Positions 12,373 through 33,800 of a DNA stretch of 64,000 nt are shown here, in pieces. Where the stretch lies: positions 9,300,001 through 9,364,000 of the forward strand of contig OX637297.1 of NCBI GenBank assembly GCA_951799445.1, written 5' to 3'. A program made the translations under genes and the position numbers. The notes under the pieces were generated by a model that was not told the DNA's origin, ran no database searches, and saw only the letters and a program-made list of their open reading frames with translations. This DNA is from Pseudisothecium myosuroides. Its lineage: Eukaryota; Streptophyta; Bryopsida; Hypnales; Lembophyllaceae. Positions within the stretch are counted from its first letter, which is position 1; each line of letters starts with the position of its first letter.

Positions 12373-13993
12373 CGTGGAGATGATTGAAGTTCAAATATTT
12401 GTCGGAATTTTCTGAATTTCTGTGAGAAGATAAAGGAATTACATTAGCTTTCCGAAAATGTAATTTTTATTTCAATTGGTGCCCAGGGGTCATTGCAAGA
12501 AAGACTGGTACTGAAACATTGTCACAAAACAAATGCCATATTTAACTACTTTTGGACTTTCAATAGTCCAGAAGTAAAGAGGCGGTGAAATCCCCTGATG
12601 TTTTCCTATGGATCTGGAGATCTCCTGAAATAGGAACGCTTTGCATGCATCCAATTCAGGTACCACAAGTATGTCGGGGAGTGCTTCATGTGCTTGGAAA
12701 TGAAAGAAATCGTGTAGTTGTAACATAGCGGATCCGTGGTAGAGTTCACATGATTGTATTGGGAGATCTGTGGACCGGGTTTCCGTAGTTTAGGCATCCA
12801 ATTTACAGCACAACTGAAGTCTCAGAACCTATCGAGAGATCCCCCGATGACCACCACTCGTTGCAAACATGGCTCCCATCCCATATTAATCCCTCAGTGA
12901 GCGCTGATCTTCACATAATTCTATCGGGAGATCCCCTGACGGGGGGGTAGAATATGAGTCGGCTTCACTGACAATCTTAGTGTCGAAGTGGTACAATTTG
13001 ATTCTTGTGCTAAAGTGCAAGTGATATCCGAGTTCATCAAGAATGAATCACAATAAGGCACGAGGGGGCCGATTCTTTCAAAGATATATGGTATCCCAAG
13101 AGTTCAAAGGAAGTACACACAAGTAGATTTGAAATTCAAACATCAGTTGACAATTACCAAATGAGCAATTGCTCTTGGGAATAAGGAGTCCGGTTCTAGG
13201 ATTCACCGGGAGATCCCCCGACGGATTGCTAACATAGTGGAGCTAAGGTAGTCAGGATATGATGAAGTGACGGGGGCATATCACAGTACTCACAGTGACA
13301 TTTGAAGAACTGTAGACGACTGAGTTACAGGTGCTCAGACATTCAACATACATCTGAAGATGAATAACGGCTAAGTAAACATAATATTCCATCCGAAATA
13401 ATGACATTAGTTTGAGTTTGTGTAAAGAACATCAAGGTTCTTTCACTGCAAAAAATAGATTCGTACTTGGTTGTCCGCTATATAATTGTGAAGATGCAAA
13501 ACCTAGAAGACTAGAATTCCAACAGTGTAACTGTGAGAGAAAAGAAATGCATTATTCAGACTCATTTGAGTGTATGTATGACCCGAGCAATGTATTCTGT
13601 TCCGGACACAAACATAAACCACTTCCATTTCAGGAGACGAGAGGAAGAAAGACATCCCGCGCTTTTGCTATCAAGTCATTGCCCTCGTGCCGCACGCAAA
13701 GAATAGAAATCATAAACATATTAATATATTCATAAAGATTTATTTTACATATACAAGTCACAAAAAGCAGCTCTGAAAAATTAATCGAAGAACAGTCCTA
13801 CTGACTCAACGGACTGTACTTCGAAACCCTCACTTGCGGCTGTGCTTACTGGATGTAGAATGCATCGTGCGATATCACAATGGCAGTCGCACCCCGCAGA
13901 ATGCATCGTGACATCTCACGATTGCCGCGACGACCGACACAGTGCGTCGGGAGTTCCCACGATGGCAGTAGCGACCCCGGACTAGGCACTCAA
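12373..13993. other. Left flank of element 1, palindrome-bearing, no gene
   Basis: No exon is evident, and the 107-codon frame at 13412-13735 starts at TTG. The stretch carries the leftmost copies of the element-1 palindrome: core GGAGATCTCC at 12616, then 18-mers at 12831, 12923, 13205, 13864, 13905 and 13946. Variants here favour CGGGAGATC half-sites over the CGTGGGATC form seen in the centre. It is probably the 3' flank of the DUF7869-like gene and the subterminal zone of element 1. Confidence 0.5.
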
Positions 13994-15926
13994 TCATGGG
14001 TCCACCACGTTTGCCCGATTCAAATTCACTAAGGCAGCCTCCCTACTCTTTTGAGGAATCGTCCGTGATTTTTGATCCACTCTCCTGGACCAATTCGCAT
14101 ACACTACAGCACCCGCGTCCACCCAGGTGGGGGGACTTTTTTCAACGACCCATTTACCGTACCAGCAATTTCGATAAATCAATTCTAGCCTCGTTTCGGA
14201 GTTATCGGGTCGCTAGTACTGAAGCAAGAACTTCCCGTTATTCACATCTCCTTCCAATCTGCATACAGTAGACAATGCTCTTCCCTGCCAAACAGCACAT
14301 GATTCCGGGACTTCCGATCTGACAAGTACCCAACAGCCTGGTCGTATGTCTAGCCATGGATTAAAGCTTTCCCTTGGCGCTTCATTTGTAGGGCCGCAGT
14401 AAGGCTCCGGCTCCTCTTCTTCCTCCGGAATCACGTCCATGGGATTCACCGTCGATCCTGGGTGAGGGACTCCATTACGCGCCACCCTCCAATTGTGTTG
14501 TGGCCAGAAGCCTTCCACCAACTCCGGAGGACACTCGGGTAGTGGTTCCTTCAGCTCATCAAGAACACACTTCCAGTAATCCACGTATGGACCGAACGCA
14601 GTTGCAAATCCCTCGCATCTAGAAATACCGTATTGCCAGTACTGAATGTATTTCTCGAGTCCTACCAGCATGAAACCCTTGTTCAAGGTAGCTTTCCGCG
14701 CCGCTTCCCTTGCCTTCTCTTGATTTCCATTTGGTATCGGAACCTCACTGCCCACATGGGCTTAAACGGAACACGCTTTGGACAGCCGTGAGGGAGCATG
14801 GGCCGACCATTGCTGTCTGTCTTCCAAATGTGTTCAAAAGGTTTTTTCGACGGCAACCAGTTCGAATCAACTGCTGACCTTTTGAAGTTCATGACGGGGA
14901 CCCCATCAGTGTCCACGTAGAACTTGAACAGGTGCATCTCCCCCAATCCAATTAATTTTTCCCCGCGATCGCATTGGTAACCCTCCACGAACGACTTGAA
15001 ATCCCCCACCTCCTGTATGAACTCCGGCATAAATGACAGTTCTTGGGACTGCATGAAGGCTTTCATGAGGTCAGCGACGACAAAAGTGTTCTTGGTCTTT
15101 AGGGCCTTGGAAAGGTGGCTGAAATATGCATCGATGTCCTCGTGAGTGTGTCCGACTAGTAGAAACCCAACCTGAATTTCCATGAAGACACCTCGTGCAG
15201 TGAGCAAGGATAAGAACGCCATCAGATATTTTTTCTTGTTATCCTTGGCAGAGTTGTCAAGCTGAAGATATAAATTTTCAGGAAGAGGGGTACTTCGACC
15301 CGAGCTCCAGGTTCGGTGAGGGTTAGGCTGTCCATACATCTAGACTTTCCTCTAAGCAGTGCCTCAAACAATGAGTTAGCCGGCGGATATGGAAAGAGGT
15401 TGCTTGCCTCTCGAATAGGTGGACCCTCCAGTCGGCGCAACAACCTCGCCAAAGATGAAATGGTGAAGTTGGAGTCCGCCGGCCAGCAAGATGGAGCATA
15501 ATGGGCGTAAGCACCGTCACCATGGCCATGAGCTACCATTCCAGTAATGCTCATCGGAAGCTGCCCCAAATCGGCCGTGGCCTTCGTTGTCACCCGGAGT
15601 CTGGGTAGAGCCGTCTTGGATGTATCCATCTTGTCGTGAATTATACATAAAATTCTTCGAGGATCTCGTTTGGATTCCTCACGCCAAGACGCATACAAAC
15701 GACGGCAAGAAGCTTGGTGATTGAGATGATGAGTCCGCTGCTTCACGAACTCCACGTACTCGGGGCTTCCTTTCGGAGACTTCAGAATAAACTGCTGTAG
15801 GTCGTCGCACGTAGTACATTTTGCAAACGAACTTCCGACAGGTTTAATGGAGACGTTGAAGTGCTCTCGCTTGAGTCTACTAATAGTCGACTGGCTCACG
15901 GGCGGCAGACCGTAGTCGGCATTCAA
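13994..15926 (-). pseudogene. DUF7869-like transposase-type protein, C-terminal exon (degenerate)
   Basis: Three overlapping minus-strand frames (16001-15222, 15339-14683 and 14755-14213, continuing to 13994) are one coding sequence broken by two one-base frameshifts, near 15285 and between 14755 and 14683. An in-frame TAG lies at 14213-14215. Diagnostic motifs in order are: a CxxC pair (KCTTCDDL), IIHDKMDTSKTALPRL, GHGDGAYAHYAP, YLQLDNSAKDNKKKYLMAF and VGFLLVGHTHEDIDAYF. I recognise these as the DUF7869 pattern. The spaced acidic residues (HDKMD, QLDN, HEDID) look like a DDE/D RNase-H-type active site, so a transposase role is plausible but inferred. The exon start is set by acceptor TGTGCAG at 15929-15927. 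The gene ends at TGA 13994-13996. Confidence 0.75.
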
Positions 15927-16091
15927 CTGCACATCCAGAATTGGTACGCTTAAGCATCGATACAAGCGAAGGGGAAGGAATGCAAATGACAAGCAATGCA
16001 CTAGAACAGTGATCGTGATATCTCACGATCATTGATCTCGTCGGGAGATCTCACGATCAATAAAGCAGTGACAGGAGATAAGGGGCACTAC
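15927..16091 (-). repeat. 165-bp intron holding two element-1 palindromes
   Basis: On the minus strand the donor is CGAG|GTAGTG and the acceptor GATGTGCAG|TTGAATG. The phase agrees with the downstream exon once a small upstream frameshift (near 16150) is allowed. Palindromes ATCGTGATATCTCACGAT (16012-16029) and GTCGGGAGATCTCACGAT (16040-16057) fill a quarter of the intron. Confidence 0.65.
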
Positions 16092-17373
16092 CTCGTTGGC
16101 GTCTGCTCGGACTCGTTTCCAATTTCTTCCGGGAGGAAAGGAATTTTAGAGTGTCCGTTTGCCCGTTCCCAATGCCGCGCATTTGGTGGGGCATTTGATC
16201 AGCATTCTCGTCAATAATGGCTTTCATAGTCCCAACGACCTGAAGAGTCCGAGTCCGCGGGCGCTTAACCCCTTTGTTTCCGTGCGTCCCTGATACGACG
16301 CCGTCGTTGTACATCTCGATGTAACTGTGGTAAGTGGACTTTGGGATGCCATGAATTATGTACCACGCCTTGCCACAAACATCAACTCCCTGTAGCGTGA
16401 CGTATTTCCGCTTCCGCTCCCCGTACCTTTCGTGTAGTTGTCCTCCCACTCCAATCCCATATTCACGGTGCTCGTCAAATGACTTCAAGTAGTACTTTTG
16501 CCTTACTAACAGCGTGAACTCCTGGTTATAATGCTGACAACACAGACGTCTGCAGCACTTCTCCGAGCTGACTTTCCGAATCTCCTCGTCTGCCGTTTTG
16601 CGGGAGTACTGCGATTCCTTCAGTTCCAGATTGGGTTTGCGAACTGTAAACCGATATGGTGCTTTCATTCTACCTCTGAGGTAAGCAAGAGGGTCGTTGA
16701 TATTTGGAATGGCGGCAAAATGATCCACTGTCTCCTTCAACGAACGACTGTTGGGAAACCAGCACTCTGAAATTGGCCACCTGTCGTGAGACATTATAGC
16801 TTTGGTGTCACCCACAAAAACATCGAGGACTGTCACACCTATGAAACCTTCACCAAGTGTCTCCTCTTGGAAATGATCCTCCGGACTCCAACAAATGATA
16901 CGACCCGAGGAAACAAGGAGTCCTTCGGCGTCCTTCCGATGCACATCAAGTCCAAACCAGGCTCCTTGACGAATATACGGACATGGATCCATCGGGGGAT
17001 CCCCCGACGCTCTAACAACGTCGGCGGCTCTCCACAACACTACATTCTCTTGAACATCCTCTAATGTGTTCATACCCCTCTGACAAGGAAAGCATTTCAA
17101 ATCTTGGAATTTTAATTTGATAGAATGAGGTCGCACCAGAATGTAAATCCAAGGCTCAACAGGTATGGGCACACCCAGCCACTAGCCCTAGGGACGAACC
17201 TCTTTAACAATTCCTGATCCAAATTCACCGAATCCAGGCACAAACAGCTTAACCCAATCACCATTCACAAACGCTTCACATCCACCGGTGGAATCCTGTG
17301 ATTCACCCTCTACATGCGTTCCGTCCACATACGGAACTATCGCGTCAGCAGCAGACTCACAAAATGAATCCAT
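16092..17373 (-). pseudogene. DUF7869-like gene, N-terminal exon (degenerate)
   Basis: Two same-frame reading frames, 17373-17188 and 17172-16057, are separated only by two TAG codons (17188-17190 and 17182-17184). The likely start is ATG at 17373 (MDSFCESAADAIVPYVDG). The protein contains a Cys cluster, EKCCRRLCCQHYNQEF, that may bind metal, and then YGIGVGGQLHERYG, a region usual upstream of the DUF7869 core. The end is better read in the next frame (PPGRNWKRVRADANE) just before the donor, implying a frameshift near 16150. The palindrome at 16991-17008 lies in coding sequence and encodes Ser-Gly-Asp-Pro. Function is inferred only from association with the transposase-like exon. Confidence 0.6.
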
Positions 17374-18300
17374 TGTCAGAGTGAGCTCTATCGAATCCCT
17401 TGGACGAGATTAAAACGATCCATAAAACCTGTACATCATACATTCAAGGAGTTAGGCATGTCTACAGAAGAGCGCTGCATTCATGGCATTGTAACCTCAC
17501 GACATGAAGGACAGAAGCATCAACGTCTGTACAGTCGTGGGAACTCACGATCACATGGCAACGCAACATGAACAACTGAATCTAGTTACTGTCAACAAGA
17601 AGTTCGAAAGCCCGGACGCGATAGTGCGATCTCAAGAAGGCCGTCCCAGAACCACTGAGAAGAAGCCAAGGCATCCAGGAAAACGTCGCAGAAGTTTAGA
17701 AGACATTAACCAAAGAACGTTCAGTACATCGTGGGATCCCACAACACTCTTGGCGCTCAATCACTTAAACCAGAGATCGCGGTATTCCAAGATCCTCCTA
17801 AGGGATCACATAGACCGCTACAGAAATACAAATGAAGTAGTGGATCAAACTGAATCACTCTGACGAGTCCCCGACATATTGAGATCGACAATCAATCGTG
17901 GGATCCCACGAGTTCGGTATCATGTAAATTCCGGAAGAGTGTTTGTGAACCCCCCCGAGTAGGAGAACCTGGTGCCAACCGAAAATGTGATCGTGAGATC
18001 CCACGATGCTTATACAAGATCGACGAGGAGTATGACGGTCATCGAAAAGTAAGGCACCTAGACGTACACCAGGAAGGCCACAGCCAAGGTTCAATCGATC
18101 GTGGGATCCCACGACGAAATGATAGAACATCCCTCGACTACCAGACCGCGATATCTCTCTACTTGAAGACTGAGAGGTCTCGCCCACGCTCAATAAGCAG
18201 AGATCGTGGGATCCCATGATGCTTACGTATGTTGGATATATACACGTATTCTATTGTCGTAGATCGACGTATCTACAGAAGATCGTGAAATTAGGTTTCC
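17374..18300. repeat. Palindrome cluster upstream of the DUF7869-like gene
   Basis: Element-1 palindromes occur at 17534, 17728, 17895, 17990, 18098 and 18203, with degenerate copies near 17486 and 18281. The spacings are 194, 167, 95, 108 and 105 bp. Most carry the canonical CGTGGGATCCCACG core. The stretch is non-coding on both strands and is either the promoter region or a first intron of the minus-strand gene. Confidence 0.8.
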
Positions 18301-19552
18301 TGTCACTGGTTTCATGACATTCGACACTCTATAATTATTCTCAGTTACTGTACAAAAATTCTCTACTTTTAAAGTGGATTTTGCTGTGATTCAGATTCCT
18401 GAACCTCCATGGGTACAATAGGAAACGTTCTTAGAAGTAGTTGAATTTGATGGCTGGGTTTTCCTCATGTAAGTCCGCCTAATTCCTAACGCAACTTAAT
18501 TTCACTATTTTGTGAAGACGTTCTGATCGGTTGTCATCCACGTACAAGGTTCTCATATCAACTTGCCCTCAGGGCAGTGCCGTCCCGCGATTCAAAAAGA
18601 ACCTCGATGTCACCACAGCATGGTGATTCCTTAAGCACGTGAGTTTTTTGCAAAATGAGACCAATGCGCGAAGAAAGTTATCGCAGACTCCGTTTCACTC
18701 TCAATCTACGACATCCTCAGTTTGTGACAGAGTGCAGTGGCGTCAATTCGACTACAAAATCCTCGACATTCGGAATCGCATAACACTTGCAAGGGATGCA
18801 TTCTTACCTTGCAGCAACTGGCTCGGTCAGAACTTCGTGCGCCTCCACGCCCACTCTGTCGCCAACGCCGGCAGACACCCACTCGCCACTCCGCAGCCTG
18901 CTCCGCCTGTTCACGTGTGCAATCAAAAAGAGCAAGCTCCAGGTTCTTTTCGGGTTATGAACCAGGTGGCTGGTTGGAATTCTTCAACTCTGAATTCCCG
19001 CCGCGAATTTTGAAATCACCAAGCGATCCTTGATTTCGAATGTTGGATGCGTTCTTGAATGCCGTGCCACAATCAACAACGGCTGGGGGGTACGTGCGGT
19101 CCTTCACTTCGGAAGTTGATTGCATTCTCGAATTCCGCGCATCTCCGACTATAAGGAGGGAGGGCGTGGGGCTCTTGACTTTCTGACTGGAACTTCACAA
19201 ATCCAGGCTTCACTGAAATTCCGATTCTTCACTGACATTTTGAAATTCGCCGCATTCAAAGATGGTATCGTTGCACCGTTTTCTAGGAGTCAATGATGCT
19301 TTGACCAAAGCGGATCAAACTCTAAAGACTTTCACTCCACAGAATGTCACACGCTTCCCCGATCAATACTCGGAATTCTTCCCCTACACGACCTGATTAT
19401 ACGTATCCTACAGAAACGAACTGTACAAAATCTCGTGAACCCAAAAACTTGAGCACCTGAAACATGTGGAACACCTCACTTACAAAAAGAATCAACAAAA
19501 ATTTTGAACTCTAGAATGTTCATATTTGTTATTTTCTATTCCAATGAATGCA
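18301..19552. promoter_or_regulatory. GC-richer leader region, gene not resolved
   Basis: GC content rises at 18640-19300, similar to the DUF7869-like exons, and the stretch could hold the 5' UTR or a first exon of that minus-strand gene. The open frames at 18639-19033 are on the plus strand and look like shadows. I see no convincing TATA box. Element-1 palindromes stop at 18.3 kb. Confidence 0.3.
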
Positions 19553-19780
19553 ATCTTAGGGTCTAGGGTCCACAGTCATAGGGTCTACAGTCCACGGTCA
19601 TAGGATTTAGGGTACATGTTGTAGTATAGTGTTCACGGTTTCAAGGTCATGGTTCTTGGTTTCAGGGTTCAGGGTTTCAGGGTTTAATAGGGTTTAGGGT
19701 ATACAGTGGCAGCGCTTTACATTAACGTTTTCAGGGTCTACAGTTCATGGTTTACGGCTTTTAGGGTTTAGGGTATTATG
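19553..19780 (+). repeat. Interstitial telomere-like repeats (degenerate TTTAGGG)
   Basis: The stretch is built from tagggt and cagggt words with several true gggtttaggg units (for example near 19688 and 19760) mixed with gtctacagt and catggtt variants. It matches plant-type telomeric repeat in degenerate form. It may be a captured telomere patch or a derived minisatellite. Confidence 0.65.
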
Positions 19781-20032
19781 AAAAATGAAAATAACGCTGA
19801 TTATTTGTTTCCAATTTTTTCCTCAATTATGTTTACGTCATCTCAGACTGGGAACATATAAACTTAAAATTCAATCTAACTCAATATTGCTAATTAAAAA
19901 TGTCAATTAACAGATTGATTTCATATATAATTCTTGTTATGTAGTACAACATCCTATGGTTTAATATGGGACTTTACGGATTAAACAATGATTTACACAA
20001 TGTTTATTTCATCTACGAATTTTTAAATAAAA

Positions 20033-20193
20033 CACCAGGGGCTTTTTTGCGTTTCCCTCTCTCATTTTTTCCTGCGTAAACGGCAATCCATGACTTCTCC
20101 TTGTGTCACAATCCGTTGACACAATGAAAAGTCATAAGATTGTTGTTTACATAGGGGAAAGTGAGAGAGGGAAACGCAAAAAAGCCCCTTGTG
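20033..20193. mobile_element. 161-bp hairpin MITE
   Basis: The ends are CACCAGGGGCTTTTTTGCGT at 20033 and its near-perfect reverse complement ending GTG at 20193. The inverted match extends about 45 bp per side, through tttccctctctca and gtaaac. No open frame is present. A convincing target duplication is not visible. Confidence 0.7.
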
Positions 20194-20499
20194 AAGGACT
20201 TTGGATGTGCAATCATGATGGAACAAAGAACAAACTGAACCATATATTTATTTTGTATTTTAAATCTCAGTCTGAATGATTTAATGAGTTAAATGCTTTC
20301 AAATTTGTTAATGCACTTTGACGGGTGATGAATGCTTAAACCTGGAATCATGTCTATCATGAGAATATTGTAGGTCATGCAATCTTGATCTGGATTTTTG
20401 AAATTATTGAACGTGGTATACATCTACATCATTATTTGACAACGATGTACGTAATATTGTTATTTGTTATTGTTATTTGAAAAATCTCCACCGATGTGA

Positions 20500-22030
20500 A
20501 AAAAAAATCGGGAATGAAATGCGTGATGGCTTGAAACTGCTTAAATAATATTTAAAAAGTCATGAAATTTCATACATGCATGCATAAAATTTGATTTAGA
20601 AAAATGTAATTGCTCCAGCCTTAGATTCCACCACTATTTTCTAGTCTTGCCCGTTGAAAAATTCTAATTCACATGAAAATAAAAAAATTGGGAATGAAAT
20701 GGGCCCTGCCATTGAACTATGGCTTCATTTTAAAACTGTCATGGAATTTCACACGTGCATGCATAAAATTCTACTGTGGAAGTTGGAATTGCTCTCAGGA
20801 TTTAGATTCCACCACTATATTCACTTCTTGCCCATTGCAAAATTCTAATTCATGTGAAGTAAAAAAAATTGGGAATGAAACGGGCCCTGCCATGGAATGG
20901 CTTCATTTTAAAAATGTCATGGACTTTCATACATGCATGCATAAAATTCTATCGTGGAAGTTGGAATTGCTCTTATGATTTAGATTCCACCACTATAATT
21001 ATTCACTTGTTGCCCATTTCAAAATTCTAATTCACGTGAATTAAAAAAAATTGGGAATGAAACGGGCCCTGCCATGGAATGGCTTCATTTTAAAAACGTC
21101 ATGGATGGTTCATACATGCATGCATAAAATTCTATCGTGGAAGTTGTAATTGCTCTTATGATTTAGATTCCACCACTATATTCACTTCTTGCCCATTGCA
21201 AAATTCTAATTCACGTGAAGTAAAAAAAATTGGGAATGAAACGGGCCCTGCCGTGGAATGGCTTCATTTAAAAATGTCATGGATGGTTTATACATGCATG
21301 CATAAAATTCTATCGTGGAAGTTGGAATTGCTCTTACGATTTAGATTCCACCACTATAATTATTCACTTGTTGCCCATTGCAAAATTCTAATTCACGTGA
21401 AGTAAAAAAAATTGGGAATGAAACGGGCCCTGCCATGGAATGGCTTCATTTTAAAAATGTCATGGATGGTTCATACATGCATGCATAAAATTCTATTGTG
21501 GAAGTTGGAATTGCTCTCAGGATTTAGATTCCACCACTATTTTTTACTTCTTGCCCGTTGGAAAATCCATCTTAACGTGAATTTAAAAAATGGGGAATAA
21601 AAATATTGGGCCCTGCCATGAAATGGCTTCATTTTAAAAATGTCATGGATGGTTTATACATGCATGCATAAAATTCTATCGTGGAAGTTGGAATTGCTCT
21701 CAGGATTTAGATTCCACCACTATTTTTACTTCTTGCCCATTGAAAAATCCGTCTTAACGTGAATTAAAAAAAATGGGGAATAAAAATATTGGGCCCTGCC
21801 ATGAAATGGCTTCATTTTAAAAATGTCATGGATGGTTCATACATGCATGCATAAAATTCTATCGTGGAAGTTGGAATTGCTCTTAGGATTTAGATTCCAC
21901 CACTATAATTATTCACTTCTTATCCATTGCAAAATTCTAATTCACGTGAAGTAAAAAAAATTGGGAATGAAATGGGCCCTGCCATGGAATGGTTTCATTT
22001 AAAAAATGTCTGGCAATTTCATGCACAAGA
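20500..22030 (+). repeat. 182-bp satellite array, about 8 units
   Basis: GGGCCCTGCC marks each unit at about 20701, 20882, 21064, 21244, 21426, 21608, 21791 and 21974, with spacings of 180-184 bp. Each unit also carries ACATGCATGCAT, gattccaccact, and cacgtgaa next to a poly-A tract. The open frames across it are repeats of one conceptual peptide and are not genes. A weaker first unit precedes 20701. Confidence 0.9.
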
Positions 22031-23215
22031 CAGTTTATGTCGATATGGAAAAAAAGGTACAAGTTCAAAATACTCCGCTCATGAAGTGAAGAGGCATGAG
22101 CGGGAGAAGTCCATGCTACGTTTTTCCGAACTTACCACGTAACGTAAAAAGGTCCTCCTCCGCCTGCGGTTCATTCAAAGAACTCTCATTCCATAAATCA
22201 TACATAAAACAGTACATGTCGGTATCAAAAAAAGAATGTATAAGTTCTTAATCTTCCGCTCATGAAGTCATGAGCAAGAAAAGTCCATGGTACGTTTTCC
22301 AAAATTGCGATACATATTACATGTCGATTTAAAAACAAAAAATTGAAGTTGTAACTTAATATTAATTTTTTTTTCATAAATTGAAGATCATTTCTGAACG
22401 TCCTTTGTTTGACATTTTTTTTTAATTTCCATTTTTTGCAAGTAATTCCAAGATCATGGGCGGCTGGGCTTGGTCACGTACTTCGGAGAACTGTCTCTAG
22501 ATATGCTCCAAAATACAAGTAAATTAAATAGATTAACACCTAGTATGCCCCTAAAACCGCGGACAATCACGCTCTTGTCCACATCTATTCAATGATCATT
22601 GCAAGACAATTAATATAGAAGACAATAAGATAATTTAGATATTATTTCTTCATTACACATTTGCCAATCATGTTGATTGTATACATGAAAATGATTGCCT
22701 AGGAGATGAATGAGAAAGAATTATATAGGATAATCATCAACAATGTTCCCTGTACTTATGTAATCTTTACAGTCATCTCTATTTAATTAAATAATTTAGA
22801 CTAATCATTTTCTAGAGAAATGACACAAGTGCAAACTAGAAATCAATGTTCATTATGTTAAAGGCATATTTAGCGGCTTGTAAAAAAATAATAATCATTG
22901 AAACCAAAGGTTAAACCTAGAAATCAATGTAGCAATCTATGAAATTAAACCGCTCATGATTCGTAACTAATGTTTGCATGGGCAGAGTATTTAAAATAGT
23001 AAAACTACATTTTTTTTGTTAAAATTAACTCGTACAACATCATGCATGATTTATGGAATGAAGGGTCTTTGAATCGCAAGACTGAGGGTTTTTTTTTAGG
23101 TTACGTGGTAAGTTTGGGAAAACGTAGCATGGACTTTTTCCGCTCATGACTCTTCACTTCATGAGCGGGTATTTACAACTTGTACATTTTTTTTCCATAC
23201 CAACATTTAAAATAG
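22022..23215. mobile_element. ~1.2-kb element with ~180-bp terminal inverted repeats
   Basis: The segment 22022-22210 reappears in reverse complement at about 23035-23215. Shared blocks are ttacgtggtaagttnggnaa, gtagcatggactt, ccgctcatg and cttcatgagcgg, plus a poly-T stretch and ccata. A partial third copy of the arm lies at 22210-22300, 180 bp after the first. The interior is AT-rich without a gene. The arms share sequence with the 176-182-bp satellites, so it may be a rearranged satellite rather than a transposon. Confidence 0.55.
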
Positions 23216-23783: not shown

Positions 23784-24038
23784 GTTGGGTTGTGTGGAGT
23801 TTCTTTGGTTGGCGGGGCGTTGAACTTCTGTTTGCGGAGTCGAGCGCGGCGAGGGACATTAGAGGAGCGTATTCAAATTTTGCTGGCGGAGTGTGTGTGC
23901 GCGGAGAACGACAGTGAATTTTTGTGGCGGAGTGCGGTAGTGCGTGAAGCATTTCCTGGCGAAGGCGGTGCGCAAGCGTCCGGACCTGTGCGCGAAAAAA
24001 AAAACACGGTGCGGGACTTCACCCACCTCATTGAACAG
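23784..24038 (+). pseudogene. Possible first coding exon of the ParB-like gene
   Basis: An open frame runs from after a TGA at 23781 to the donor ATTGAACAG|GTTAGT at 24038. Phase 0 matches the next exon at 24708. It contains no ATG, so either translation begins elsewhere or the start is lost. The predicted end is TVRDFTHLIEQ. The call rests on the good donor, the matching phase and exon-like GC content. No domain is recognised. Confidence 0.4.
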
Positions 24039-24707
24039 GTTAGTTCATCGTAGTCCAACCTCAAAACCTGCATTTTGATTTTGTAGTTCTCTGGCGGTGA
24101 GGTTCATTATTTGACTTCTTCGTTGTAGAATTGTAATCGCATGGAGGTGTGCGTTTGCTCTGGAGTTTAGCTTCTAGGCTTGGAAAGAATTGATCCCATT
24201 CAAGCTTGTCAAATGAATCTAGTACATGGATACAATGGCTGTATGGCACTCGCCCTCCTTGCAGGTGTAGGCTCTCTTCACGCATCATAGTTCACGGTTC
24301 ATCACTGTAGACCCTAGAATGGTAACCTTGATGTAGTTCACGAACTAGAGTTCAATCATGTGTATGATTAGACTGCTGTGAGTGTTTGAATTGAAGCAAA
24401 GTGAAGTAAGGAACGGGAATGTTGCTCCCAAAGAGGAATGGAGCGAAGAGTTCATTGTATATTATTTAGTTAGACAATACTCGTTTGTGAATGATATTAG
24501 GAACATGGTTTGTGCAGGGATTTTATGACTATGATCAAACACGCTTGTTTTCTATGCGATAGGCTACTTAGTCCGTCACTTTAGATTTAAGTTTACCTTC
24601 TCTTCAATTAAATTCACTTGGCTAGTCATGAAGAAACAAGTTAGGAGTTTGTGATTCTCAGTGGATGATTGAAGTTACAATTTCTACTGCATTTGAATTT
24701 CATGCAG

Positions 24708-24835
24708 CAGTCTTTCGAAGAGCGGAAGGGCATTTTTGTAGTAGCTGAAAACAAGGTCGGACCCGTGCAAGCGGAAGCTACGATGGTAGCAGGTCCATCC
24801 CAGCGTACAGCAAACCTCCCAGTTTGGAAAGACCC
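24708..24835 (+). pseudogene. Small internal exon of the ParB-like gene
   Basis: Acceptor TTTCATGCAG|CAG, with an alternative NAGNAG site 3 bp on, and donor GACCC|GTAAGTT. The 128-bp exon is open in one frame (QSFEERKGIFVVAENK, ending NLPVWKDP). Its last two bases (CC) join the T of the next exon to make Pro, so the phase fits exactly. The exon sits in otherwise AT-rich DNA. Confidence 0.65.
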
Positions 24836-25863
24836 GTAAGTTACTTTGAACTATATTCTCTTTACATTCCGTTTCTTGCTTGCAATGTTTAGGTTACAAA
24901 CATTGCTAATAATTAGGGTATGGTTGTTTGCAATTGCATTGTACGCACTCCGCTGAAAATGAGGGTAACAGAGCCTCTGTCATAGTCGTTGTTATACACA
25001 TAGCTAAGAAATACGGTAGTACATATGCCGAGAAGAACACACGGTAATGAGTACGTGACCCTGTTATCGGGGATAGTGACCCTAAAACCGTGCATCGTGG
25101 GATCCCACGACAGGGCAATCCCTGTGTAGATTCGAGCATCGTAGGATCTCTGACTTGAAACCCTAGCCGCCCACCACTGCGCGGCCACACGAGTTTTAGG
25201 GTTTGTGGCCCATCGTGGGATCCCCCGATGATAAGATGTGAAGACGCAATCTAAACCGAGACCACATATTAGGCACAGACCAGGCAGCGGATTAGTAACC
25301 CATCGTGGGATCCCCCGATGGAGGATAGTAAAGACCGCGCCTGACCCAGACTTAACAATTAGAAGACCACCTACATAGAGCATTCAAGTACTAAACCGTC
25401 GTGGGAAATCACGACGAGAAAGTCTAGCGTGGGTAGAGAAATTGAGATGAAGGCGCGTTAATAAATAGCGCTGATTATGTGAACAATCAATCGTGGGATC
25501 CCACGACAGACAGTAGTTTCACAGATCATCACCGATCACCTTCTAAGATATTCCAATATCCATTCTATGTTATTTGGTGCCGTCGTCATATGCCGGGACG
25601 CCTTCAGTTAGTGAGTTGAGATGCAGTAACCTCCTGCCCACTACTGTCCGTGAATGTAACCGATCGTGATATCCCACGACAACGGTAATTTGTGAAACCA
25701 GGTCATCAAAATGATCACGAAACCATTCCTTCTCTTTCATAACATCCGTCGTGGGATCCCACGACTAAGGATAAAAATTAAAGTTAGAACGGGAATAATA
25801 TCGCACCACCATCTGCTCTATCGGACAATGTGGAAACTAACATCTTTTTCTACCATGCTGCAG
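24836..25863 (+). repeat. Intron carrying eight element-1 palindromes
   Basis: Palindromes occur at 25094, 25138, 25212, 25302, 25398, 25490, 25663 and 25748. The best (25094, 25490, 25748) are CGTGGGATCCCACG with extended arms. The two at 25212 and 25302 share the asymmetrical CGTGGGATCCCCCG form and flanking cc. All lie in the downstream 770 bp, none in the first 250 bp. The acceptor is accatgctgCAG|TGAAATG. Confidence 0.8.
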
Positions 25864-27187
25864 TGAAATGCAAGTCGTTGAAGGTCCAGAAGAACTGACA
25901 CCCAGGAAGCTTGGTACCTTCATCGACTGCTACATTACGTCTTTGGAGTACACAGGTCCACATCCACCACAAGCCTTTTTCCGATGCGACGAGCAGATTA
26001 CGCATTGGAGAATCGCCTGGAAAGCAGAGAGTGACGGCTCCGCCACTATTCTTCCCACGCTGGTGAATGGGACAATGGGGCACCCAACTGCCAGACTGAA
26101 GGTACTAGAAATGAAGGGGCTTGACGACGACACAGCGCTCCTAGTTGTAGAGGAGAAGGTTCCCCTTTTCGGGGAGATCATAACTTTTGGGCTGATCCTT
26201 GACTACGCGAAGTTCAGCCTCACTCTTTGCGAGTCTGTGACTGCAAGGTCACATCTGATGTGCAAAGACACGTCTAAGCCTCGGTGGAAGCCTAAGGAGC
26301 TGAAGAACCAGTGGGACATAATCCTGGAAGACTTACGAGATACGAACGCTCCCCCCCAAGCTGTGACAGCAGTTGCTCCCACGCCGTCCCCCAAAAAGAA
26401 GACCAGGAAGAGGAAGTCTGCAGTTGGTGCTCCCGGGGACGAAGTTGAAGCCGCAGTTGGGACATCCGGAAAGAAAAAAAAACCGGATACCCCACTCCCG
26501 CTTCACAGGGCTGTTGCTCTAGGGGAGGCAGACGTGAAGAAGATGACACCGGAAGAGATGAATGCGATGAGGACCCTGTACGAGAACTCTTTCGGTGGCC
26601 TGTACAAATGGGGTAGGAAACCAATCTGTGACAGCAAAGGAGAGCTCATCCGCGTGCACTATGACTATCTGCACCAGGCACCTGTAGCACTGCTCGTGTA
26701 CAGGGGAATTCAGGCAGAGCGGCTTGATTCGCTGACGAGGAAGGCACGAATCACACCTGATTATGACTCGGAGAACAGAGTCATAACAGTGCTTCCCCTT
26801 AAAGCGGGACCCTACGGCCCGGCGAAGGTAGTGTCGCACTATGAGAAGCAAGCGCCGAAGAAAGAGATCTTCGAAAACCCCAAGACGCACTACTACATAA
26901 TAGGGGGCCAACACACTGTCCAGGCATTCAAGGACTTGATTAGGCTTGGTGTGATTCCCGAGAAGGACAAGAAGCTCGCCTCCACCTTCAATATTTTACA
27001 TGTGTGGACGGACAAAGATCACCACAGAGACCTAGTGCACTTCTCGCGGGCGCTGAACTAGGATGTTGTTGGCGAACAGAAGGAGCAGAACTTCACGAAG
27101 CAGCTGCTGAACGCAAGAATCAAGTGGCGGAGTATGGGAAGTCCACAGCCAGCACTATTGGGCAGAGCACACTCAGTAGAGTACAAT
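25864..27187 (+). pseudogene. ParB/sulfiredoxin-like domain exon
   Basis: A single open stretch of 441 codons is interrupted by one TAG (27059-27061), after which the same frame continues 42 codons to the donor TACAAT|GTAAGA. In order: an unrecognised N-terminal domain (about 130 residues), a basic low-complexity linker (PSPKKKTRKRK), then a domain with ITVLPLKAGPYGPAKVV and HYYIIGGQHTVQAFKDLI followed by FNILHVWTD. The GGQHT-x2-A pattern on a helix after a beta strand resembles box II of the ParB/Srx fold (GQHR, GERR). ParB folds bind DNA or nucleotides or act as nucleases; which applies here is unknown. No bacterial partition genes are nearby. The family call is moderate, and the stop makes the copy non-functional unless read through. 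Confidence 0.55.
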
Positions 27188-27647
27188 GTAAGAATGCCGC
27201 TGGAGTTGACATATTTTTTTTTTGGGGGTCATCAGAGTGCGCTCTATCTAACCATCGTGGGATCTCCCGATGGTCCTGCACTACACCTCAGACCTTCATT
27301 ACGTTAGAACCTCCTCATCGTGGGATCCCACGACTAAGTCCTGGCTTTGAGATACGGGGTAGTTCTACGTTAGAATGAGGAGATCGTGATATCCCACGAC
27401 ATTAAGTTATGAAATACCAGATGTCGCTAGTTTAGTCTTTTGTGCTGGGGGTTCAGTGCGTGGTGTTTTCAAATTGTGCATGTAGAAGATAGTGGCTCAT
27501 CGTGATATCTCACGACTGCCTGTTGCCTAAACGACTTCCTCGTGGTAACTGACTGATCGTGGGATCACATGACTGTTTATTGGACTTCTTGTGTTCACGT
27601 GGTCTGTCTACGGATCGCGTACTGACTGTTACTCCTTTGTTGGGCAG
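27188..27647 (+). repeat. 460-bp intron with five element-1 palindromes
   Basis: Donor GTAAGA at 27188 and acceptor TTGTTGGGCAG at 27647, phase 0 on both sides. Palindromes lie at 27254, 27317, 27383, 27499 and 27556, including the GATATC-core variants (CGTGATATCCCACG, CGTGATATCTCACG). Five sites in about 320 bp is the densest cluster in the window. Confidence 0.8.
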
Positions 27648-29006
27648 GCGTTTCAGCCGTCGGTGGCATCAATATTTGCGGGAGCAAAGGCGAAAGACAT
27701 CGCCGAACTGAGAATCCCTCTACTCTTCCTAGAGAATGACGCTGATGTTCAGAGATGGATCAAGATAGAGGAGAGATTCATGGCAGGTCTCCTTCCCGAC
27801 GCGGCAGGGCTGGTCGATGTATCCGGGAGTACGGATCGCAAACCGTTGGCGGCAAACGACTTCAAGCCCCTTTACGGACTTAGACCGGAGGACATCAATT
27901 TCCTTGCGGATCAAGTCGAAGCCCAAGTTGTCAGCATGAAGACCTCCGTCGCAAAGTCGAAATCACAGAGAGGTAGAAAACGCATTATCTCTCTTGCTGA
28001 CGCCGGCGCCAAAATTCGGTTGGTCAGGGCGATGAAGAACGAACTCTTGTCACACTATAAGGGTCATCTGCTGCCGGCAAGGATGGTGGAGTACGAGCCT
28101 TACCCAGACTCTTTGTGGGTTGAGTTTGCAACGGAAAGGAACATTCAGCACGAGGATGTGGATATGTGGGTGAACAAGGCAATGGAAGCCCCTGCTGGAA
28201 AGAAGTGGTTGCAGGACCGGACGAGAAATCTCAACAGGACGTTCGACCCAGCTGACCTTCCGCAGTCAGTGATCCAAATGTGGGAGTCGTATTTCAAGCT
28301 GACGGCGGAGGAGGAATTGGTGCAGGCAAATGCACGTGGTTTTTCAGAGCACTATCTTTGTAAAACCATGGACAAAAGCAGCTGGGACATCAGCGCCACC
28401 TTGGCAGCAGGGGACGTCATAGCGTGGAGGGGAAAGAAGAAGCAGCACCTGTACATCTTGTTCATGTTCGAGTCAACGTCCTGCGGGTGTCGCGCCAAAA
28501 TTCTTGAAGAGCGGAAGTTGAAGAGACTCTTTGACGCTCTAGAGTACTATGATCCGCAGGACCAGACAATCGTAGCCCGCTCTGCCGCCGTTCTCCTCAC
28601 AGATGCCGAAGGGTTCCACATGATTGTGGCTCACATAGAGAAACGAAGGATGGAAGTCAAAGCTAGGTTGTGGGACTGGCACGTTTTGAACTACATGGCA
28701 GGGCCCAAAGACTTCTTCCCTCAAGCTCCGGCCAGAGACGGGTACAATGTCTTTGTTGTCTTCATTTTTGGGCACAGCAAAGAGCACGAGCGGCGGACTT
28801 GCTTCAAAAGCTTCTTCCCGGGATTGGACCGCCTGACTCAGGTGTACAAGGCGGAAGATATGCCGGACGACTACCCTTACTGGCGTCGGCAGCAGATGCC
28901 GTATCTGAAGATCAGCAGTGCGTTGATTCTATTCGAAGGACTAGCTTGTAGCGACTATGTCTTTGTCAATGTCAACGGGGGTCCGGAGTTCACATATCTG
29001 GGCTTG
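27648..29006 (+). pseudogene. Central/C-terminal exon, possible permuted methyltransferase-like domain
   Basis: This is a fully open 453-codon exon, phase 0 to 0, with acceptor ...GGGCAG|GCG and donor GGCTTG|GTATGC. The first 200 residues are helical and charged and contain a basic SKSQRGRKR segment. The last ~130 residues show alternating hydrophobic strands: DGYNVFVVFIFGHSKEH, YLKISSALILFEGL and then, across the next intron, YSEGGKVLEVVDSAEAKTL. This order parallels the gene at 62.2-62.8 kb (NVWMWIVTDNWD, EVPLLFLFKGRNEY, STGKNCVGIYAGSK), which I read as a DNA N6/N4 methyltransferase with the cofactor-binding motif at its C-terminus. If so, the DPP[YFW] and FxGxG residues are lost here. The ORF-level call is firm; the fold is an inference. 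Confidence 0.5.
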
Positions 29007-29106
29007 GTATGCACTACAACGATTGTCTTTTCTTTTGTTCTTCTGATAATCTCAATTTTGATTTCGGGGATGTGAATGTCACTAATATCCGGCTGTTGTA
29101 TTTCAG

Positions 29107-29340
29107 TATTCGGAAGGTGGTAAAGTGCTGGAAGTTGTCGATTCAGCGGAAGCTAAGACGTTAAGTCAGGTCTTCGCCAAGCAGATTTGGGACGACAAAC
29201 ATGCGCAGGCGGCACCCCTTCCTCTTCCGGAGGCCGAACACGAGGACGAGGAAGTTGAGAGTGATGATGAAGCTGCTGTAGTTGAAGACATCACCCAACA
29301 CAGACCGGGTTTAGGAACAAGGTCGGTTGAGCACCCTAAG
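29107..29340 (+). pseudogene. Acidic exon of the ParB-like gene
   Basis: A 78-codon phase-0 exon between TGTATTTCAG (29097-29106) and AAG|GTTAGT (29341). It begins YSEGGKVLEVVDSAEAKTLS, which would supply the cofactor-loop strand if the preceding exon is methyltransferase-like, and ends in a strongly acidic tail (EAEHEDEEVESDDEAAV). The 100-bp intron before it has no palindrome. The 125-bp intron after it (29341-29465) carries one at 29366. Confidence 0.6.
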
Positions 29341-29465
29341 GTTAGTGTGCACTATTTGCTGAACCATCGTGATATCTCCGGACGTTGGGCAACGTATATC
29401 TCTCGCATGCTAATCTGGGAGGGCAAACTGAGCTCAATTGTGGTGGGATATTGCCTTTCTCACAG

Positions 29466-31140
29466 GCGAAATCTCTGACTCCCTCCCCCCGGCGAGAGCA
29501 GCTGATTGATCCGCCAAGTGCAGCAGAGGATGCAGACAAAGTTCCCGAAGTTCATTCGGCGTAGGCGGAGCTGGCAGATTTGACAGAGGAGCATGAGAGT
29601 AGTCCAGAGCCGTTACCAACCGAAGAAATTGTAATTCCAATATCGAGCGGGTCGTCAGGCGAAGTGAATTTAGGGATCCAATTAATGGACCCAAGGATAT
29701 CCAAGAGGAAGCCGCGTGAGAAGCCGGTCAAGGAACCTGACACTGCAAAAGATACCGGGAGCACAAAGGTGGCCAAGCGAGCGCGGAAGACAGCAGCCGA
29801 AAATCGGAAGGGGGGGACCTCGAAGTGGATTCCAAGTAAGTCATTGGTGCAGCGCAAACAGTTGCCAGCGAAGCCGACTGGGAGTCCCAATCCCGAAGCA
29901 TCAGTCGTGGCAGAAGCGCTTCTGACTTGTGCCTTGGGACCGTTACCATCGAAGTCTGACAAGTCAACTCAGCCGCAACAGGAGGATGCGTAGGCATCTC
30001 GTGCTTCAGGAGCTGACAGACAGCTTCCGGACCTCGACTTATTAACCCTGGGGGACACTCACTGACTAGCATCGAGGGATCCCACGATGACGAACGAGTC
30101 ATTGGTGAGGAGCGGGGAGGATGCGGCCGACCTCAGCGAGGGGAGGAAAGAGTCGAAGGGGAATGATGACCACCTCGTATCGGGGGATCCCACGACGAGC
30201 CATGCATTACCTGTCGAGACTAAGTTAGCTGTCCCTCGACGTGGTGCAGGGAAGGATGACCAAGGCCGAACACCGGGACCTGAAGGATCGGGGGATCCCA
30301 CGATCGTTAAAGAGTCAGTGGTCTCAATTCAACATGGCGATCCGGCAGAGAGCGAGGGGTTTGAACACCAGGAAGGAGTGGTTGCATTGTCTTCGTCGGG
30401 GGATCCCACGACGGTGCCAGAGCGATTGCTCCCGCCGATGGGCATCACGGTTGCTGTACTGAATGACACCCTTGTTGACTTGGTCCCCCTGAGTCCCAAA
30501 CCTGTTCCTGGAAGGAAGAATAAACCTGTCATAGGGCGGGCGAGGATTGTCGACATTGCTTCACTGGCCTCCAGTGTTCCACTGGAGGTTGCAAGAGAGG
30601 TGGTTCCTGATGACGGTGAGTGCAATTATGACGAAGTGCTAGAGGCCTTACCTTACGAGGCCGATGAAATAATGAAGTTCTGTCTTGTCGATCGTATGAG
30701 AGCATTTGGTCATTTACCAAGTCTAAACCACTATGGGAAGAAGCGTCTCAATACCAACAAGGAAATTCATTTGGAATCCATAAGGCGAGCGAACCGTTTC
30801 CTTTACAAGCCCCTCTTTAAATGGATATTTCAGGATGGTCCGCGTGCAGTGTATGATGGAGGGGATCCACCTGATGCAGACGAAGAGTGGGAGGCAGTGG
30901 AACGCGGCGTTAGAGGGAGGAGGGTGGTGCCTTCGAGCGACGACGAGCTTGAGCCGGGATCTTTGAGTGGTGACCAGCGGGAAAGAGGACCAGTGAGCGC
31001 CGACGAGAGAGGAAAGGGGCAAATGCTCGTCGAGAGGAGGGGAAAAGGATCAATGAGCGGCGGCGAGAGGGAAAGAGGACGATTGGGCAACGAAAGGAGG
31101 GCGAAAAGGTCGCCAGCTTGTAGCGTCCGAGCTCGCGCAG
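29466..31140 (+). pseudogene. Long disordered C-terminal exon with S-G-D-P-T repeats
   Basis: Acceptor TTTCTCACAG|GCG and probable donor CGCGCAG|GTAACA. One reading frame spans 558 codons with three stops: TAG 29562, TAG 29991 and TGA 30063. The protein is rich in charged residues, Ser and Pro, with basic patches (ISKRKPREKP, KVAKRARK). Four element-1 palindromes at exactly 108-bp spacing are translated in the same frame, as SGDPT in three and SRDPT in the first. A more ordered island (REVVPDDGECNYDEVLEAL to FKWIFQDGP) lies at 30590-30840, followed by Arg/Glu/Gly repeats (RERGPVSADERGKG). It is probably a regulatory or DNA-associating tail. No known family is recognised. Confidence 0.55.
30071..30412 (+). 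repeat. Four coding palindromes at exact 108-bp period
   Basis: The copies start at 30071, 30179, 30287 and 30395. Three of the four read CGGGGGATCCCACG and the first CGAGGGATCCCACG. The sequence between them is only faintly similar, for example NESLV against KESVV just after two of the copies, so an ancient 36-codon tandem repeat may have kept only its palindrome. Confidence 0.8.
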
Positions 31141-31259
31141 GTAACATGCCTACATTATTGTCAATGTACATACGAGATAACGAATCTTGAATTGGCCGGT
31201 CACTGAATCTGTGCTTCACTTGTATTCTGCAATTTTTCGAGTGCTTGCTGAACCGGTGG

Positions 31260-31322
31260 CGAAGTCGTCGAATCAGGTAGATGCTGCCGGGGAAGTCGTC
31301 GAATCAGGTAAATGCTGTCGGG
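31260..31322 (+). repeat. Direct duplication of about 31 bp
   Basis: AAGTCGTCGAATCAGGTARA plus TGCTGYCGGGG occurs twice head to tail. Each copy contains an AATCAG|GTARAT that could act as splice donor or acceptor. The first FCP1-like frame begins right after the second copy, so the duplication may mark a deletion or rearrangement junction. Confidence 0.75.
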
Positions 31323-31638
31323 GACGTCTGTTAAGGCGAAGGACGTGCCTATTCTCACGCAGGAAGACTACACAAAGTCGTCCTACAGAGACCCCAAACA
31401 CCCGGATAGGCCCTACTTCCTGAAGGGTCTAAATCATTTCGCCACTAAGCTGGGTTTGAGGTCAACCGAGAATGTTCTCCTTGTTGATGACGATCCACTT
31501 AAAAACCTCTTGAACGATTGTCATAGCGCCATTTTCCCCCGCAAATTTGAAGGGGACTGGAAGGAGCAGTACCTTGTGGGGGTGCTCAGTCCTTGGCTCA
31601 CAGGTCTGTTTAAGTCACAGGAAGCTGTGCCGGCGTAG
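31312..31638 (+). pseudogene. FCP1/NIF phosphatase-like domain, C-terminal half
   Basis: A 108-codon frame from ATG 31312 to TAG 31638. The segment ENVLLVDDDPLKNLLNDCHS followed by AIFPRKF matches the C-terminal half of the FCP1 (NLI-interacting factor, HAD-like) phosphatase fold, where LLVDDSP-x-KN-x3-N and AIFP are hallmarks. The N-terminal half with the DxDGT nucleophile is absent upstream (there is a TAA directly before the ATG). A corresponding N-terminal half lies downstream at 32896. It is therefore a fragment or rearranged gene. In plants intact FCP1-like enzymes act on phospho-Ser in RNA polymerase II tails. Confidence 0.7.
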
Positions 31639-32895
31639 GTCAAGAAGCATCCGCTCCACAATGGTCTGCCACCGGCGGTCCCGTTGACCAGACCCGGGTC
31701 TGACATTTTGAGGGCAGTAGTTTGGTTTTGGTTTTTCTTCCTCGACGGACTTCATCATGATATCTCACGATCTCCTTATGGCGTACATATTATTGCTTGT
31801 AGCTTAAAACTCTTGAACATACTGTAAATATTGTAAATGCATTTTCGAAATATTGGACATTCTTTGTTTGTAGGAGGCATTGATTCAGCCTCGTAGTAAA
31901 TGTGAAAATAAAATTTTTTCCTAAATGCCTTTGATTAAGATAATTATGAGTTCGAAGGGATCACCTTGACCTTGACTATTAATCCGCGTGCATGCACATC
32001 TAGAGATCTAATGGTATACCGTGGAAGTGGATTCTATCGGTAGATCGGACTGTTCTGGGCATTTATCCTTGTCTTTTAAATCTAAAGTGAATGCATTTCC
32101 GGTGCATGACCCTCACTTAGAATTGTTTTTTTACTCCTCGTTCGCAGCTTTAATCTAAATTTGGTTCTGAAATTGTTTATCATATTACTCGGAAGAGTGG
32201 AATTTTTTGAACACTTCATTAGATTTTAACACTGGGCGTCATCATCTTGCGCGGCAAGCTTCATCAGGAGATCGCATGATACGACGTGACGTGTGAACAT
32301 TGAAATGTCGTTTCCGTCCTTGTATTGTCTCATGATATTGTTTTTGTACTTGTGGATGACAATGAAGTTGTAGTTGTGTTTCTACTGTTTGTTTGGGAGT
32401 TCTCCTGCAGTTCCGGTTTGCTGAAGTACGGATTTGAAATTGATAATTTTGTCCTCTGTCTTAGGCTTGATCGGAAGATCTCACGATCATTTTCCCTTGC
32501 ATCGAATTATTAGTCTTAGGCGGATTATGTAATGTCCATTTTTGTTGCTTCAATCAAATGCAATTGAATTTCTGCTGCGTAACTTCCTTTGCTCGAGTAT
32601 TTTCGGTCTTCTAGTATGTCACCCTAAACCTTTTTTTGTATTTGACACGAATTCTAAATCTGCATCCCTTGTTAGTGCTAAATTCTGGGCTGCAGTGACA
32701 CCGTAGAAATATTGCTAATTTCCTTGCACTATGCAGCAAATAAGACATTCAGTCGTTGTTCTTCAAATAACTACCCATGCGTATTTTCAATTAGTGGTTC
32801 TGTTGTATTGCATATTGGTCGAGGGATCTCACGATCAATTGACGTCGTTTTTGTATGTACATGTCTGCGTGCTGAGGCTTACTTGGTCTTTGCAG
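31639..32895. other. Palindrome-bearing non-coding stretch between FCP1 halves
   Basis: The palindromes here are mostly the GATATC and GAGATC variants: 31754, 32263, 32470 and 32818. Poly-T and AT-rich runs are common. No exon is evident; the frame at 32731-33072 extends into the next exon but starts before its acceptor. Confidence 0.5.
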
Positions 32896-33144
32896 AAGGC
32901 GATGCTCTTAGTACTAACAGGGGATCTCTGCGTGAAGGGCGGTGTGGCGGATCTCCCACAGAATATCGAAATTCGGCCCGGCTTCCGTGGTCTTCTCCAA
33001 CATTTCGTTCAAGAAACTCATTGTGGTTTGTGGTCCGCAATGCAACCTTCAACACTGGCCGCTCTTCTTTGACGTATTCTACCGCCGGAAATTCTATCAA
33101 GGTTTCTATTTTTTGCCGGGTCTGACAATCCACGGAAGAACCAG
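32896..33144 (+). pseudogene. FCP1/NIF phosphatase-like domain, N-terminal half
   Basis: Acceptor GGTCTTTGCAG (to 32895) and donor AACCAG|GTGTAT give an 83-codon phase-0 exon. It reads KAMLLVLTGDLCVKG, then IEIRPGFRGLLQHF, THCGLWSAMQPSTLAALL, a TGA at 33070-33072, and RILPPEILSRFLFF. RPG-x3-L and GLWSAMQ-x3-L match FCP1 helix/strand pairs. The nucleophile motif DLDGTL/DxNGVL is shortened to VLTGDLC, so the catalytic Asp pair is missing. Its matching C-terminal half sits 1.3 kb upstream on the same strand, an order opposite to that of a normal gene. Confidence 0.65.
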
Positions 33145-33800
33145 GTGTATCCCCATCGTCGTGCAATACTGAAGACTGTCTTGAACATTCCTCGGACGCG
33201 CAGGGTACTCTTGAATAACAGTGTTGTAATGCTTGTCCTAGATCCTCTTGATTGGGCACATCGCACTTGCTTCGACCGGCGTTGCATGTGAGGGATGATG
33301 TAGATACTGTAGAGTTAGATCGTCCGCACATTATAGCACCGCCTTTTGATTGGTCTTGGGCCCCAAAAAACATGTAGTTGGAAGTGGACTAGCTGGGTTA
33401 TTTATCACCTGTTTGTTGCATCCAAATGATTATATAAGTGGCGAATCCACCTTTTCTATCTGACTGTGATTACACCTTACCAAATGTCTGTAATTGCATT
33501 ATGTTGCTTCATCCATTCTTTTGTGTTATGACTGTGATACTTTGGGAAGTATCTTCTGAGCTCTCCCGATCTGTGATGTCGCATATTAATGCAACCCCGG
33601 ATACAAATGTACCGCTTACAGCAAATGTTGGAGTTGACATCATCTCAAATTCATTGATTTGTTCGAACACTCTATCCCGAAGGAGTATATTTTCTTTCAT
33701 CGGGAAATCTCCAGACCACTTAGCATCCCAAAGCGATTTAAATCTCCTTTGAACGGCATTATGGATTCATTGTACATACCATCGGGAAGATCTCCCGATG
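33145..33800. other. Right flank of element 1 with last palindromes
   Basis: The two final palindromes are ATCGGGAAATCTCCAGAC at 33699 and ATCGGGAAGATCTCCCGAT at 33781-33799, the latter a near-perfect 19-mer. Overlapping minus-strand frames (33373-32879 and 33287-33018) oppose the FCP1 exon and are treated as shadows. GC content falls to background after 33.8 kb, which I take as the right edge. Confidence 0.5.

Follow-up and report, generated by a model that had tools for sequence, protein, structure and literature searches.

A 64-kb stretch of the genome of the moss Pseudisothecium myosuroides (contig OX637297.1 of assembly GCA_951799445.1, positions 9,300,001 to 9,364,000; hereafter the window) contains 36 copies of an 18-bp palindrome whose halves abut without a loop, and these copies belong to a 21.3-kb transposon that carries two genes, one for a DUF7869 protein and one for a ParB-like protein. 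Judging from the form and placement of the sites and from comparison with related sequences, we consider it on balance likely that the palindromes bind the transposon's own ParB-like protein, which would coat the element's control regions and keep it active.

The palindromes lie within a giant DNA transposon

The whole transposon copy spans 12533..33861 (21,329 bp) and ends in 28-bp terminal inverted repeats at 12533..12560 (+ strand) and 33834..33861 (- strand), the right repeat being complementary to the left at 27 of 28 positions. The termini read ATGCCAT and are followed on both outer sides by the 4-bp target-site duplication ACAA (12529..12532 and 33862..33865), so placed that repeats and duplications bracket all 36 palindromes. 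When the 388-Mb genome was searched with the 24-bp core of the repeat at three or fewer mismatches, 555 and 554 occurrences were found on the two strands, compared with 0 and 1 for the reversed pattern. Five further long copies with the same ends, retrieved through exact pairs of this core, measure 27,073 to 39,250 bp; outside tandem arrays they match the window element at 91-98% identity over long aligned stretches. An exact 4-bp duplication flanks four of the six long copies (the window copy, E9a, E9b and E6); copy E5b has a 3-bp duplication and copy E5a none. By its structure and its copies, the 21.3-kb unit is a terminal-inverted-repeat cut-and-paste DNA transposon. An earlier note on this DNA had proposed a single mobile unit, and the bracketing repeats, the 4-bp duplications, the five long copies and the approximately 1,100 repeat ends support this.

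One further ParB-like exon (C11:4151701-4152918) encodes a protein identical to that of the window, with the same stop further on. This copy, at 4.15 Mb of C11, stops at the same inverted repeat, and its right flank is unrelated to that of the window, whereas its left end was not found in the piece retrieved; a recent transposition possibly connects the two copies.

Number, form and placement of the sites

Sites were scored with a half-site weight matrix (about RTCGKGRGA, 12.8 bits per half), which yielded 36 sites, all between positions 12831 and 32818. The remaining 43 kb of the window gave no site, and neither did the element copies when their sequence was reversed. The 18-mer given in the earlier note has no exact match in the window; it is one mismatch away from 11 sites and four or fewer away from 32, all of which fall between 12831 and 32818. 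Thus the described cluster is real and is indeed confined to the interval of 12.6-33.8 kb, but its size, put at about 40 copies, is 36 plus one weaker 19-bp variant (33781..33799; score 11.7 with a 1-bp spacing).

Variants had also been described as mostly self-complementary, which does not hold: a single site of the 36 is perfectly so, and the half-sites vary independently, with a mean of 1.89 of 9 positions mismatched versus 2.07 under random pairing (p = 0.10). In a scan of spacings from -3 to +7, strong sites numbered 211 at zero, 5 at +7 and 0 at all others. Zero spacing and independent halves are what a pair of like subunits bound to duplex DNA should produce. An RNA hairpin is not favoured as the functional form, because a change in one half goes uncompensated in the other.

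Thirteen of the 36 form arrays upstream of the two genes, six before the DUF7869 gene (17534..18220) and seven before the ParB-like gene (25094..25765), and seven more lie in inferred introns, two in the DUF7869 intron (16012 and 16040) and five in the first ParB-like intron (27195..27620, + strand). The outer regions hold six sites on the left, 3' of the DUF7869 gene (12831..13963), and four on the right (31754..32835). Five sites fall at 29366-30395, four of which (30071, 30179, 30287 and 30395) occupy 108-bp repeats within an open frame (30066..31187, + strand), and one (16991) lies in the N-terminal exon stretch of the DUF7869 gene. Sites are absent from three exon stretches (4.8 kb together) and from a 6.7-kb central block. 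These positions confirm the clustering in gene flanks and introns that had been noticed before, and they are where a regulator would bind.

The site-free central block (18301..25000) contains a 183-bp tandem array at 20551-22022; a 24-bp word of the array has 1,703 genomic matches at two or fewer mismatches (reversed control, 0). As the earlier note had observed, none of the 36 sites falls within this block, an outcome with a chance of about 1e-6 under even spread. The accompanying view that this satellite-containing block is a later insertion was rejected, since the block is present in all five of the other long copies. The central block of copy E9a harbours a nested 253-bp miniature relative of the element (L044), which shares its inverted repeats, is flanked by a 4-bp duplication and has no strong palindrome.

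The two genes of the element

The DUF7869 gene, on the minus strand, comprises an N-terminal exon stretch (16057..17409), an inferred intron (16002..16056) and a C-terminal exon stretch (13997..16001); in this copy the former has an in-frame stop and the frame of the latter is broken. Copies E9a and E9b retain an open DUF7869 frame of 677 amino acids. The only Pfam family found in the transposase open reading frames is PF25273 (DUF7869), and the predicted fold of a relative resembles a DDE transposase, so that this protein is likely to be the element's DDE transposase. Named relatives occur in Physcomitrium (52% identical), Ceratodon and Riccia. When viral contigs were scanned once with the alignment of DUF7869, no viral relatives emerged, and the name DUF7869 was not found in the literature searched. 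If the assignment is correct, DUF7869, so far a family without known function and with named members among mosses and a liverwort, would gain a likely role as a DDE transposase domain.

The ParB-like gene, on the plus strand, consists of exon 1 (25868..27194), which has an in-frame stop at 27059-27061 in this copy where relatives are open, the first intron described above and exon 2 (27621..29072), in which no domain was recognised. Two of 17 relatives match PHROG 1033, 'ParB-like partition protein', weakly (best E 0.011) on an IIGGQHT block, and two of 17 match DUF6551, also weakly (best E 0.029). Searches for phage relatives gave a single match (E 4), searches for longer annotated relatives gave one protein of 467 amino acids that was already known, and sequence searches against solved structures gave chance-level histone matches only.

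The DUF7869 and ParB-like genes form a divergent pair in 57 of 66 scored DUF7869 copies. Ratios of nonsynonymous to synonymous polymorphism (pN/pS) of 0.44 for the DUF7869 exon, 0.36 for ParB-like exon 1 and 0.42 for exon 2 (the last among six copies) show that both genes are under purifying selection.

Sampled palindromes follow the transposon family through the genome

Allowing two or fewer mismatches, the palindrome was found at 2,389 places in the genome, compared with 4 for the reversed pattern. Exact palindromes occupied 51 places among the matches listed, the total being many more, and 24 were examined, of which four had been supplied as loci and 20 were chosen by hand. All 24 lie within this transposon family, 13 in long copies and 11 in short miniature inverted-repeat transposable elements (MITEs). 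An even spread through the genome, or equal density beside unrelated genes, had been named in advance as evidence against a single element, and the sampled sites display neither. Among the 51 exact places listed, 28 are within 25 kb of a scored ParB-like exon (n = 102) versus 0.85% of random places, an expectation for which the length of one chromosome had to be assumed. At 30 inverted-repeat ends, the inner 1.5 kb contained 47 sites and the outer 1.5 kb contained 3. The long copies show the same pattern: each has 29-33 sites at four or fewer mismatches, and the 5.4 kb of flanking DNA retrieved alongside has none; the half-site matrix finds 33-37 sites in each of the five further copies.

The short, non-coding MITE relatives (31 rows, 202-610 bp) carry an exact 4-bp duplication in 26 cases. 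At least one site is present in 28 of the 31, mostly 50 and 73-74 bp from an end, and none was seen in the reversed control. Two rows are composite and 12 come from loci picked for an exact palindrome, and the rows are not independent, because the MITEs are related to one another; among the 19 rows found by the inverted repeat alone, 16 carry a site.

The retention of sites at fixed places in gene-less MITEs would also be explained if the DUF7869 transposase itself bound them and required them in cis for transposition, as subterminal or internal repeats that help a cutting complex to assemble. In keeping with this, the window element has a weak site near each end, 62 bp from the right (the 19-bp variant) and 80 bp from the left. 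Most of the 36 strong sites, however, are internal, the nearest starting 298 bp inside the left end and 1 kb inside the right.

Divergence within and beside the sites was compared across 54 groups of homologous sites, each with at least one copy matching the motif and some lying in open frames. Non-CpG bases differed in 96 of 6,440 cases within sites versus 1,206 of 40,332 in flanks, a ratio of 0.49 (bootstrap 0.29-0.78) that can be biased by the picking of groups for a motif match in at least one copy. Recognition at the DNA level by a dimeric protein, as the earlier note had suggested, thus finds indirect support in zero spacing, independent halves and conserved non-CpG bases. Alternatively, the sites might be by-products of local tandem duplication that have no binding function, and regular arrays do exist, as 108-bp units at 30071-30395 and as repeats of ~139 bp upstream of an exon of a sister family (family C, below). 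Yet divergence at non-CpG site bases is half that of the flanks and most MITE rows retain sites, and we regard this origin as highly improbable, the least probable of the explanations weighed here.

Sister families carry different palindromes

A genome search with the ParB-like protein of a relative (P0001) identified two sister families, B and C. Identity to P0001 is 63-67% for the ParB-like protein of family B, 54-56% for family C and 45-47% for the window's family, A. In one copy of family C, 13 sites near ACCGTGATATCTCACGGT lie upstream of the ParB-like exon and in the intron that follows, and in one copy of family B eight sites near ATCGGGAGATCTCCCGAT occupy these same two places, in which family A has 12 sites of its own palindrome. 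Both the B and C palindromes are zero-loop and differ from that of A. When sites were assigned to the nearest consensus, using words read from the same stretches as were scored, 13 of 13 C sites, eight of eight B sites and 10 of 12 A sites fell to their own family (one A site was a tie and one went to C).

Two family C exons have an exact match to the 24-bp terminal repeat nearby, at distances of 12.9 and 6.9 kb and oriented as expected, and the repeat end near the first of these exons (12.9 kb) has no A site and contains repeated B-like words. At repeat ends L011 (C1:29235300) and L028 (C3:4343820) we noted another repeated word, near ATCGGGAGATCTTCTGGT, whose right half is weaker.

Taken together, these comparisons strongly suggest, without amounting to proof, that the palindrome changes together with the ParB-like protein and that the terminal repeat, as seen near family C, stays constant. 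Because sister families with diverged ParB-like proteins show different palindromes in the same places, the ParB-like protein is the likely binder. Binding by the transposase is harder to reconcile with families A and C, which share a terminal repeat and differ in palindrome, and we judge it unlikely. A host DNA-binding protein, exploited by the element for its expression or silencing it, would fit the presence of sites in introns and before both genes, places open to host regulators, and the decay of CpG in sites at about the rate of the flanks fits methylated, silenced copies. Against such a protein stand the three palindromes of three families in one genome and the 24 of 24 sampled exact A-type sites inside the element family; no host gene is therefore seen using the site, and we consider a host binder very unlikely.

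Under our preferred reading, in which the ParB-like protein binds the palindrome, it would do so as a dimer, as placement and co-variation suggest, and the DUF7869 protein, as DDE transposase, would act on the 24-bp terminal repeat. When bound at the intron array and both upstream arrays, the ParB-like protein would, by analogy with the Arabidopsis protein VANC, counter host silencing or drive transcription; activation or anti-silencing of its own element is thus its likely role. Sites 50-75 bp from MITE ends would let MITEs profit from the same protein.

Several observations weigh against this reading. Within the sites, CpG bases decay at about the flank rate (ratio 0.86, 0.59-1.23), at least five of the 36 sites lie inside open frames, three of the 31 MITE rows have no site and two of the 12 family A sites are not nearest to the A consensus. 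Families B and C are each represented by one copy scored with words of its own, and their ParB-like exons are known through matches in the P0001 search. Both genes of the window copy are broken. Finally, the Pfam ParB_N profile (PF02195), which detects 10 of 14 controls, has no match in the genome, leaving the faint PHROG 1033 and DUF6551 matches as what upholds the name 'ParB-like' used in the earlier note. Identification through structure was set aside, the model being too poor (mean predicted local distance difference test score, pLDDT, 44).

A broader and more tentative possibility, somewhat doubtful at present, is that giant plant transposons possess an identity system resembling ParB-parS, in which each family would pair a diverging ParB-like protein with a zero-loop palindrome of its own, so that the protein recognises and activates its own kin alone although the terminal repeat is common to the families. 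The palindrome would then be written dozens of times across upstream regions, introns and even MITEs.

Comparison with known systems

Sola-1 transposons generate 4-bp target duplications, a feature seen here in the window copy, in long copies and in MITEs. Duplications of 4 bp are also described for Sola2 (PMC3627910), and a Physcomitrella Sola1 appears in a review table (PMC9033089). The closest description in print that we found is Sola1-1_Ec32, a giant Sola-1 element of the brown alga Ectocarpus measuring 21.5 kb. Besides its transposase gene it encodes, on the other strand, a ParB-like/DNA methyltransferase protein that its authors suggest may bind and modify the DNA of its own transposon (PMC12477816). 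The element described here is likewise about 21 kb long with a transposase gene and an opposite-strand ParB-like gene, whereas the methyltransferase domain of the Ectocarpus protein has no counterpart in exon 2 in Pfam up to E 10. The passages on Sola1-1_Ec32 do not mention a binding site (PMC12477816), whereas a candidate site is visible here. Beyond the Ectocarpus element, the moss transposon thus offers a candidate for the bound site, which diverges more slowly than its flanks at non-CpG bases, is also present in MITEs and changes from one family to the next.

Mutator-like elements have target duplications of 8-9 bp; unlike VANDAL elements, the duplications here are 4 bp and the transposase open reading frames match PF25273 only. 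VANDAL21 of Arabidopsis encodes VANC21, an anti-silencing protein found on dense motifs in noncoding regions (PMC5735166). Shared with this system are a second element-encoded protein, dense short motifs in upstream regions and introns, and motifs that differ between related families (PMC5735166, PMC10398659). The VANC21 motif, YAGTATTAY, is nine bases long and oriented (PMC5735166), whereas the site here is an 18-bp palindrome, and VANC carries DUF1985 and DUF287, neither of which has a Pfam match in ParB-like exon 1, its relatives or exon 2. Since three families in the same genome have diverged ParB-like proteins and differ in the candidate target, self-recognition is directly testable and, if true, would provide a second example beside Arabidopsis VANC.

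Bacterial ParB acts with a palindromic parS site, and here too a palindrome lies beside a gene for a protein whose GGQHT block is reminiscent of ParB, although no role in partition is proposed here. Maize En/Spm encodes a second protein, TNPA, whose targets are short repeated sites within the same element; those sites are subterminal, and En/Spm has CACTA ends and 3-bp duplications, whereas here most sites are internal, the ends are ATGCCAT and the duplications are 4 bp.

Other features of the window

Inside the element, 31312-31635 resembles an NLI-interacting-factor phosphatase (PF03031, E 0.01), and copy E9a has a longer open frame there. The same likeness is found outside the element at 58133-58597 (PF03031, E 5e-10). 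A second tandem array, with a period of 174 bp and about five copies, lies outside the element at 40128-41012.

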